Assembly (NCBI RefSeq): GCF_023264855.1
Contig: NZ_JAHFUW010000051.1
Coordinates: 1 to 36,045 of the forward strand
DNA from: Herbiconiux sp.
Lineage (GTDB): Bacteria; Actinomycetota; Actinomycetes; Actinomycetales; Microbacteriaceae
Length of the DNA stretch: 36,045 bases
Reading direction: 5' to 3'
Of the stretch, positions 10,137 to 12,242 are shown in pieces (position 1 is the first letter of the stretch; each line of letters begins with the position of its first letter). The notes under the pieces are model-generated. The model did no database searches. It saw only the letters and a program-made list of their open reading frames with translations, and was not told the origin of the DNA. Made by a program: the position numbers and the translations under genes.

Positions 10137-10140
<4 letters not shown>

Positions 10141-11045
10141 GTCCCGCTCCTGACGCCCACGGCACCGGTGCCGCCCGCCTGTCCGAACCCACGACGGTGC
10201 CGCCCTTCGGGACGCGCCTGGACGCGGTGTTCGGCTCGCGCGGGCACCTGTGCGTAGGCATCGACCCGCACCCGTACCTGCTCGAGGCGTGGGGGCTGCC
10301 GGTCTCGGCGGCCGGCGCCCGGTCATTCGGTCTGAGCGTGGTCGAGGCCGTCGCCGCATCCGGCCGCGTCGGCATCGTGAAGCCGCAGGTGGCGTTCTTC
10401 GAGGCCTACGGATCGGCCGGCTTCGCCGCGCTCGAAGAGGTGCTGGCCGCCGGACGCGCCGCGGGTCTGCTGGTGATCGGCGACGCCAAGCGCGGCGACA
10501 TCGGCTCCACGAACGACGGCTACGCCGCGGCGTGGCTCGAACCGGGCTCGCCGCTCGAGGTGGACGCGCTCACCGTGACCGCGTTCACGGGAACCGGCGC
10601 GCTGGATCCGCTGTTCTCGCGGGCCGCCGAGCACGGGAAGGGTCTGTTCGTGCTCAGCGCGACCTCCAACCCCGAGTCGCGGCTGCTGCAGACCGCGCGC
10701 TCGGAGGCGGGGGAGAGCGTGTCGCGGATCGTCGCCGACGGGGTGGCCGCGCGCAACAGTGACCGCACGCGGCTCGGCGACTTCGGTCTCGTGCTGGGTG
10801 CCACCAAGCGACTGGACGAGTACGGATTCACCGCCGAGGCACTTCGCGGGCTGTCGACGACCCCGGTGCTCGCGCCGGGATTCGGTTTCCAGGGGGCGTC
10901 GTTCGCGTCGATCCCGGGCATCTTCGGGCCGCTGGCGCCGGATCTGATCGTGAGCGTGTCGCGCTCGATCCTGCAGCACGGAGCGTCGGGTCTCGCCGGT
11001 GCGATCGAGGCCGACGCCTCCGCTCTCGCCGAGGTGATCTCGTGA
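10137..11045 (+). CDS. pyrF: Orotidine 5'-phosphate decarboxylase, type 2
   Basis: The enzyme converts OMP to UMP, the last step of the pathway. The 302-residue product belongs to the longer type 2 family found in actinobacteria. It has the signature [11 protein letters not shown] at residues 116-126, with Lys118 as the catalytic lysine, plus [12 protein letters not shown] at 38-49 and [12 protein letters not shown] at 81-92. The first 20 or so residues are a non-conserved Ala/Pro-rich extension. The ATG overlaps the carB stop and the stop overlaps the GTG of the next gene. The operon lacks pyrD and pyrE, so the steps from dihydroorotate to OMP are encoded elsewhere. Confidence 0.96.
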
Positions 11046-11968
11046 ACCCGCCCGAGGTCGACCGCGCCGCCGCCTCGCGCGCCGCCGTCGCCGCCCGCCG
11101 GGCCCGCGCCGCCGTGAAGCGCGCCGTGAACGAGCGTCGGCTGAGCGCCGTCTCCGTGCTCGAGACCGCGCTCTCCAGCACGGAGAGCATCGAGGCCACG
11201 ATGCGCGTGCGTGACCTGCTGATGAGCATCCCCGGCCTCGGCCCCGTGCGGGTCGATCGCGTGATGGACAAGCTCGGGATCGCCGCCTCCAAGCGCCTCT
11301 CGGGCCTCGGCGTGCACCAGCAGGAGCGGATGCGCGAGTACCTCGCCAAGCGCGCCCCCCAGGTCGATGCGCCCGGACTCAGCCGCCTGGTCGTGCTGGC
11401 CGGACCGACCGCGGTCGGCAAGGGGACGGTCTCCACGTACATCCGGGAGAACTACCCCGACGTGCACCTCTCGGTCTCCGCCACCACCCGGGCGCCGCGT
11501 CCGGGCGAGATCGACGGAGTGTCGTACTACTTCGTCGACGACGCCGAGTTCGACCGGATGATCGCCGACGGCGAGTTCCTCGAATGGGCCGTGGTGCACA
11601 ACAAGTCGCGCTACGGCACGCCGCGCCCGCCGATCGACGCCGCTCTGGCCGCGGGCGGGAGCGTGCTGCTGGAGATCGACATCCAGGGCGCGCGCCAGGT
11701 GAAGGCCGCCATGCCCGAGGCCCGGCTGGTCTTCCTGCTGCCTCCCACCTGGGAGGAACTGGTGCGCCGGCTGATCGGCCGCGGCACCGAGACGCTCGAA
11801 GAACAGGAGCGCCGGCTGACCACCGCGAAGGTCGAATTGGCCGCCCAGGACGAGTTCGATCACCGTGTCGTGAACCGCGATGTGCAGGCCGCGGCGGCGG
11901 AGGTCGTAGAATTGATGCAGATTCAGAAGGCGCCCGCTCAGGAGGCCGGCCTTCGTAGCAAGGAGTGA
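11042..11968 (+). CDS. gmk: mIHF-type nucleoid domain fused to guanylate kinase
   Basis: One unbroken 308-residue frame joins two proteins that are separate neighbours in mycobacteria. Residues about 8-102 match mIHF, the actinobacterial integration host factor: an Arg/Ala-rich helix ([17 protein letters not shown]), [20 protein letters not shown] with a helix-hairpin-helix turn at 63-80, and [17 protein letters not shown]. After a short linker, residues 115-298 are guanylate kinase (GMP + ATP to GDP + ADP), with P-loop GPTAVGKG at 121-128, the GMP-binding [11 protein letters not shown] at 146-156 and [10 protein letters not shown] at 211-220. The GTG start overlaps the pyrF stop. An in-frame ATG at 11330 behind AGGAG could yield kinase alone. 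DNA-binding activity of the fused protein is inferred from similarity. Confidence 0.95.
11907..11912 (+). promoter_or_regulatory. Possible -10 element for rpoZ inside the gmk 3' end
   Basis: TAGAAT at 11907-11912 is a good TAnnnT -10 hexamer in the last codons of the fusion gene. It would start transcription near 11919 and leave a leader of about 57 bases before rpoZ. No convincing -35 hexamer precedes it, and it also encodes Glu-Leu codons, so it may be chance. Confidence 0.28.
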
Positions 11969-11975
11969 CCACATA

Positions 11976-12242
11976 ATGCCCACCAACAAGCTCGGCATCA
12001 TCGACCCCCCGATCGACGAACTTCTCTCGAAGGTCGACTCGAAGTACGCCCTGGTGATCTTCGCCTCCAAGCGCGCCCGCCAGATCAACGACTACTACGC
12101 CGACCTGCACGAAGGCAGCCTGTTCGACAACGTGGGGCCGCTGGTCGACTCCACCATCGACGACAAGCCGCTCTCGGTCGCCATGCACGAGATCAACGAA
12201 GACAAGCTCGAGATCAAGCCTGCGGCGCCGATCGTCGAGTAG
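11976..12242 (+). CDS. rpoZ: DNA-directed RNA polymerase omega subunit
   Basis: Omega assists assembly and stability of RNA polymerase around the beta' subunit. The 88-residue product fits the actinobacterial omega family, with the N-terminal [31 protein letters not shown] core, a [13 protein letters not shown] pattern typical of RpoZ, and a short acidic C-terminal tail. The ATG lies 7 bases after the gmk stop behind a strong AAGGAG ribosome binding site whose sequence overlaps the last gmk codons. The gmk-rpoZ-coaBC-metK order is widely conserved in actinobacteria and supports the identification. Confidence 0.95.

Follow-up and report, generated by a model that had tools for sequence, protein, structure and literature searches.

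A guanylate kinase fused to an mIHF-type domain in Herbiconiux and other Microbacteriaceae

The mihF-gmk locus and its product

The window analysed here is a stretch of 36,045 nucleotides from a Herbiconiux sp. draft genome (97 contigs, 95% complete). The fused mihF-gmk gene lies on the forward strand at 11042..11968; it starts with GTG and encodes 308 amino acids in an open frame with zero internal stops. Its start overlaps the stop of pyrF (10137-11045, Pfam OMPdecase) in the sequence GTGA at 11042..11045 (+), and the next gene downstream is rpoZ (11976..12242, +; Pfam RNA_pol_Rpb6), before which the original prediction had placed the fusion. The gene order assigned with Pfam is pyrF, mihF-gmk, rpoZ, coaBC and metK; the long gene upstream of pyrF was read by eye from the sequence as carB.

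The product had been predicted to hold two complete domains in a single 308-residue frame, and family profiles bear this out, both exceeding their cut-off over the whole domain. The mIHF/sIHF domain with its H2TH fold (residues 7-101, 11060..11344, +) scored 78 bits against a cut-off of 60 with NCBIfam actino_IHF (NF041260), covering model positions 9-101 of 102, and Pfam H2TH_5 matched residues 39-97 (E 3e-14). The guanylate kinase domain (residues 114-293, 11381..11920, +) was matched by Pfam Guanylate_kin (PF00625, E 5.4e-39) and by NCBIfam guanyl_kin (TIGR03263; 212 bits against a cut-off of 160, model positions 2-178 of 180), which places it in the guanylate kinase family over its full extent. 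A sequence search of the PDB returned M. tuberculosis Gmk (1s4q, E 1e-61) for the one part, and sIHF (4itq, E 9.6e-12) and mIHF (6tob, E 2.3e-9) for the other. The P-loop G-P-T-A-V-G-K-G was read from the sequence at residues 121-128 (11402..11425, +), where it had been predicted; G121, P122, V125, G126, K127 and G128 did not vary across 49 fused proteins. The guanylate kinase signature (S-x-T-T-R-x-x-R-x-x-E, Y and E-W) is also present, with many of its residues invariant in the same 49 proteins.

In the predicted structural model both domains were complete and folded with confidence, and the mIHF part had the fold of DNA-bound sIHF. Model confidence dipped at about residues 101-120, around the interdomain linker (about residues 102-113, 11345..11380, +), where the alignment is variable; the linker is probably flexible, and nothing in the low pTM of 0.62 points to the two predicted domains touching in a fixed way. 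Judged from its sequence, the product most likely converts GMP to GDP like other GMP kinases, with a folded, basic mIHF domain attached through a short linker.

The N-terminal domain shares with mIHF (Rv1388, 6tob) and sIHF (SCO1480; 4itq, 6bek) the fold, the NF041260 family score and the place before gmk and rpoZ. However, mIHF and sIHF are free proteins of about 105 amino acids, whereas here the domain is the N-terminal part of Gmk, in one frame with it, K-R-x-G/A/S stands in place of R-R-x-R (K-R-L-S in the window) and the space upstream is lost. Compared with M. tuberculosis Gmk (Rv1389, 1s4q), the fused protein has about 112 extra N-terminal residues, which constitute the second domain. 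A study on M. tuberculosis (PMC6155035) describes mihF followed by separate gmk and rpoZ genes, in agreement with the original prediction of separate neighbouring genes in mycobacteria, and reports that polar effects made it necessary to supply gmk-rpoZ in trans when mihF was deleted. Proteins of the MAGUK type (PSD-95, MPP1, CASK), which were among the search matches, also combine the guanylate kinase fold with other domains, but those partner domains are unrelated. MAGUK proteins use the kinase fold chiefly for binding; the fused protein, unlike these, has the full catalytic family profile. No published account of an mIHF-Gmk fusion was found in the open-licence literature; NF041260 is a domain-type model, and its curators at NCBI may know of fused members.

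Distribution and origin of the fusion

Gmk homologues of the Microbacteriaceae were mapped, as the original prediction had suggested. A single frame holds the two domains in all 80 loci of named relatives and in all of 30 further loci that were read. The nearest named relatives are Herbiconiux, with 85–90% identity in the best segment; 79 of the 80 named loci are Microbacteriaceae by family name or genus and one (L205) is from an unranked actinomycete. Those that are in the tree described below are ranked in the family. Of 205 classified loci, the 80 named ones among them, 142 were fused; the others (49 split, 13 without mIHF, 1 without the kinase) were mostly picked as outgroups or as domain-lacking loci. 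An order-level sample of 297 genomes contained 25 of the family, of which 24 gave full-length matches and one (G093) ended at a contig edge. Five of the 24 matches list a stop, yet the loci concerned (L016, L018, L019, L021, L022) proved on reading to hold the two domains in a single frame. In a family-level sample of 398 genomes the mIHF domain was present in 362; among the matches listed, all but one (G589) lay in frames long enough for the fusion, frame length by itself being no proof of it in G+C-rich DNA. A search with the whole protein of 80 other family genomes, from 48 genera, gave 80 full-length matches, and the 30 further fused loci mentioned above were read from this set; these genomes had been preselected for having the domain and are uninformative on how often it is absent. 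The safest reading is that fusion is the rule in Microbacteriaceae, with the mIHF domain of most sampled members encoded at the N-terminal end of Gmk. The fusion is kept in one genome in spite of strong genome reduction (G310, L075; assembled as one contig of 927,303 bases).

That an error of sequencing or assembly erased a stop/start junction, as the 97-contig draft state of the genome might suggest and as the original prediction itself had allowed for, carries a negligible probability: error and chance are both ruled out by the recurrence of the fusion in all 80 named records and by the full-length matches in the 80 further domain-bearing genomes.

Outside the family, no fusion was found among the matches listed for 297 order and 396 phylum genomes, where every listed full-span match has an internal stop. 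All 45 outside loci kept at the sequence level were split, a few being two stretches of one genome; in L112 mIHF was not found within the available stretch. In 43 of 44 split loci measured, gmk starts at −8 to +67 bases from the mihF stop, the likely gmk start having been picked by a simple rule. With so short a distance, a single frame could have arisen through a frame shift or the loss of a stop codon.

A tree of PyrF, kinase and RpoZ (79 rows, of which 14 split; quick IQ-TREE run) placed the family's fused rows and those without the domain together against the split rows, with an SH-aLRT of 100. Four changes explain it, namely one fusion, two domain losses (genera g159 and g154; g102, g104 and g168) and the locus L065. 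This pattern is best explained by a single event in an ancestor of the Microbacteriaceae that merged the adjacent mihF and gmk into one gene. About two clades have likely lost the mIHF domain, which is also new here, although the number is not proven, as the well-supported branches by themselves require one loss only and several rows are long-branched. Of the 36 family genomes without a domain match, the whole protein was used to query 16, of which 12 had gmk alone and four (59–88% complete) gave nothing. Twelve domain-less loci were read (L068–L072, L074, L076, L077, L079–L082), and in 11 of them gmk is directly preceded by PyrF; L070 has a different gene upstream of gmk, and L068 an A-, P- and T-rich extension. 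Several domain-less genomes measure 1.1–1.7 Mb, but genus g159 has genomes of 2.1–2.4 Mb at 100% completeness.

Three loci, from two genomes of the family, carry the domains in different frames. In L051 (G589, about 1788–2036), inside the fused clade, about 220 extra bases separate mIHF from Gmk, and this may be a natural case of re-splitting. In L065 and L083, both from G304, the mIHF and Gmk frames overlap around a stretch of consecutive G bases in the GLG motif; L065 is frameshifted, the genome has 86% completeness and 5% contamination, and the break is likely an assembly error.

Change in the mIHF domain and in the space upstream

Motif and identity counts were made on 134 fused and 42 split rows, obtained by removing identical rows from 139 and 45; L031, L102 and L142 (repeat or cut), L106 (cut) and the two-frame loci L051, L065 and L083 had been dropped beforehand. 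In the window, residues 83-90 read S-K-R-L-S-G-L-G (11288..11311, +), the counterpart of S/T-R-R-x-R-G-L-G in free mIHF by column counts; in the 6tob sequence the motif is RRLRGLG. The first arginine is R in 42/42 split rows and K in 132/134 fused rows, and the second is R in 42/42 split rows and R or K in 132/134 fused rows. At the third, split rows have R (34), Q (6) or K (2), and all 134 fused rows have G, A or S. M. tuberculosis mIHF reportedly depends on these arginines to bind DNA (Sharadamma 2014).

The rest of the domain changed as well. Of three columns that are basic in 45, 44 and 45 of 45 split rows (columns 20, 36 and 57), only 14, 6 and 42 of 139 fused rows retain the charge; columns 26 and 108 turned basic in fused rows, and columns 25, 28, 32 and 59 are basic in 139/139. 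The mean net charge rose, from +5.8 in free mIHF to +9.7 in the fused domain. At a kinase identity of 0.65–0.70, mIHF identity was 0.44 among fused rows, 0.50 among split rows and 0.32 across the two groups, which means that change is concentrated between the groups. Overall, these alignments suggest that the domain changed mainly at fusion, with R-R-x-R going to K-R-x-G/A/S while it remained basic and selected, which is a new observation here. D7 is a fused-specific invariant (139 or 140 rows), and the N-terminal signature P-P-E/D-V-D-R would have been fixed at the same stage as the motif was rewritten. The domain is maintained under purifying selection: dN/dS over 28 pairs of eight Herbiconiux-type sequences was 0.19 for the mIHF domain and 0.15 for the kinase. 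Values for a wider set (fused 0.53 and 0.27, split 0.43 and 0.31) depend on large dS and were left unused. Relaxed evolution after fusion was considered and found no support, the median ratio in independent pairs being 2.09 for 67 fused and 1.76 for 21 split pairs (p 0.13).

Measured between the pyrF stop and a conserved codon early in the domain, the distance had a median of 25 nt (range 8–94) in 139 fused loci and 172 nt (range 76–937) in 25 split loci; the other 20 of the 45 split loci had no pyrF match in the available stretch, some stretches being short. The space between pyrF and mihF has shrunk in fused genes and is largely gone, again a new observation. According to PMC6155035, M. tuberculosis mIHF is transcribed from a start of its own, has a separate ribosome site and ranks among the ten most abundant proteins. 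Loss of the space fits co-expression of the fused gene with pyrF; since the gene abuts pyrF, expression would be at the level of the operon and its enzymes, and not among the most abundant proteins. As a proxy for expression, codon adaptation was compared over 10 fused and 10 split genomes: the mIHF part minus the gmk part gave +0.008 for the fused genomes and −0.049 for the split ones (p 0.014), at face value the opposite of a drop on fusion, with an automatic ribosomal reference set that did not separate from pyrF.

Readings of function

One reading is that two proteins are made from the gene, through an internal translation start or cleavage of the linker. An in-frame ATG at 11330-11332 (M97), with AGGAG three bases upstream, would give a Gmk of 212 amino acids, and the linker of G589 is interrupted with the domains in two frames. 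However, an internal start with a Shine-Dalgarno match occurs in 7 of 139 fused genes, the window being one of the seven, against 12.7 expected from synonymous reshuffling, and 127 of the 134 fused rows have L where the window has Met97. A conserved internal start is rejected on these counts, for which the positive control was weak (a match at 82 of 135 gene starts and 11 of 45 split gmk starts), and we regard two products as very improbable.

A chromosome-binding role had been part of the original prediction. The basic charge and purifying selection count in its favour, while the motif switch, the lost space and the domain-less lineages weaken it. The reading we favour, at about an even chance, is a Gmk with a tethered and altered nucleic-acid-binding domain, present in the amounts of an enzyme rather than as a bulk nucleoid protein. 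The fused gene, adjoining pyrF, would be made with its operon at enzyme level; the motif that matches the DNA-contact arginines would have been rewritten at the stage of fusion; and the domain may bind nucleic acid with lower strength or in another manner and may tether or tune Gmk, with bulk compaction of the nucleoid given up. This account builds on the fusion itself, its recurrence, the intact domains, the motif switch, the shorter space, purifying selection and the domain-less lineages. Counted against it are the higher basicity, with which DNA binding agrees at least equally well, a post-fusion rate that relative to the kinase is not clearly faster, the codon comparison and the 20 split loci with no pyrF match.

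If instead the protein had a full double function, coating and bending the chromosome as a true nucleoid-associated protein and carrying GMP kinase onto the nucleoid, one would point to a basic domain under selection with the fold of DNA-bound sIHF, the sole mIHF-family match above cut-off in its genome, where Lsr2 gave no match. Against this stand the switched motif and the loss of other conserved basic columns, the lost upstream space, the survival of lineages lacking the domain, the presence of HU and the amount, which one copy per kinase would limit; we consider it unlikely. The domain might also serve Gmk as a structural or allosteric extension and have no nucleic-acid function. The motif switch, the abrupt change at fusion followed by stable constraint and new fused-specific invariants such as D7 agree with this, but the basic charge rose, the H2TH fold and four basic columns were kept, and the model gives no sign of a fixed interdomain contact, so that such an extension, too, is unlikely. 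Going further than the favoured reading of a tethered, altered domain, the cell's only GMP kinase could, across the family, be bound to the chromosome with DNA occupancy by the remodelled mIHF domain and GDP/GTP production mutually coupled, so that one molecule would link the state of the nucleoid to the supply of guanine nucleotides; free mIHF and Gmk may do likewise in trans in bacteria with separate adjacent genes. This we hold to be quite improbable. PMC6783271 describes GMK as inhibited by (p)ppGpp in several phyla, Proteobacteria not among them, and has the C-terminal helix of the partner subunit act on the lid; a link of (p)ppGpp to the fused protein would be of a general kind only.

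According to PMC6155035, M. tuberculosis cannot do without mIHF, which is a free nucleoid protein there. In one large family mIHF is part of a housekeeping enzyme, and it is missing in some lineages; fused and domain-less lineages are natural experiments on the role of mIHF and on the adjacency of mihF and gmk in many actinobacteria. Annotation is affected too: the Microbacteriaceae would escape a search for free mIHF, and the name 'guanylate kinase' alone hides the mIHF domain.

The genome of the window has one match to the whole protein and one mIHF-family match above cut-off. A second free mihF, the presence of which the original prediction had wanted checked, was not found above cut-off in this 95% complete assembly; the one other match (E 0.017) is by eye the frame of ribosomal protein S13. 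Each domain-bearing genome of the family sample has one match, except G450 and G498, whose second matches are below cut-off, one being S13 by eye. The other (L264; G498, C1) is a distant IHF-like stretch of 28.8 bits in a 326-aa frame away from gmk. Lsr2 (PF11774) was present in 4 of 14 family genomes tested and gave no match in the window's genome or in two others of its genus. HU (PF00216) was present in 13 of the 14, the window's genome included, and HU would do most of the nucleoid compaction here. The single HU gene of the window's genome (G000) is a 95-aa frame with no space for a long basic tail. A 10-kDa protein of Clavibacter nebraskensis appears in PMC7839047 under the name 'Integration host factor'; by its size, we take it for HU.
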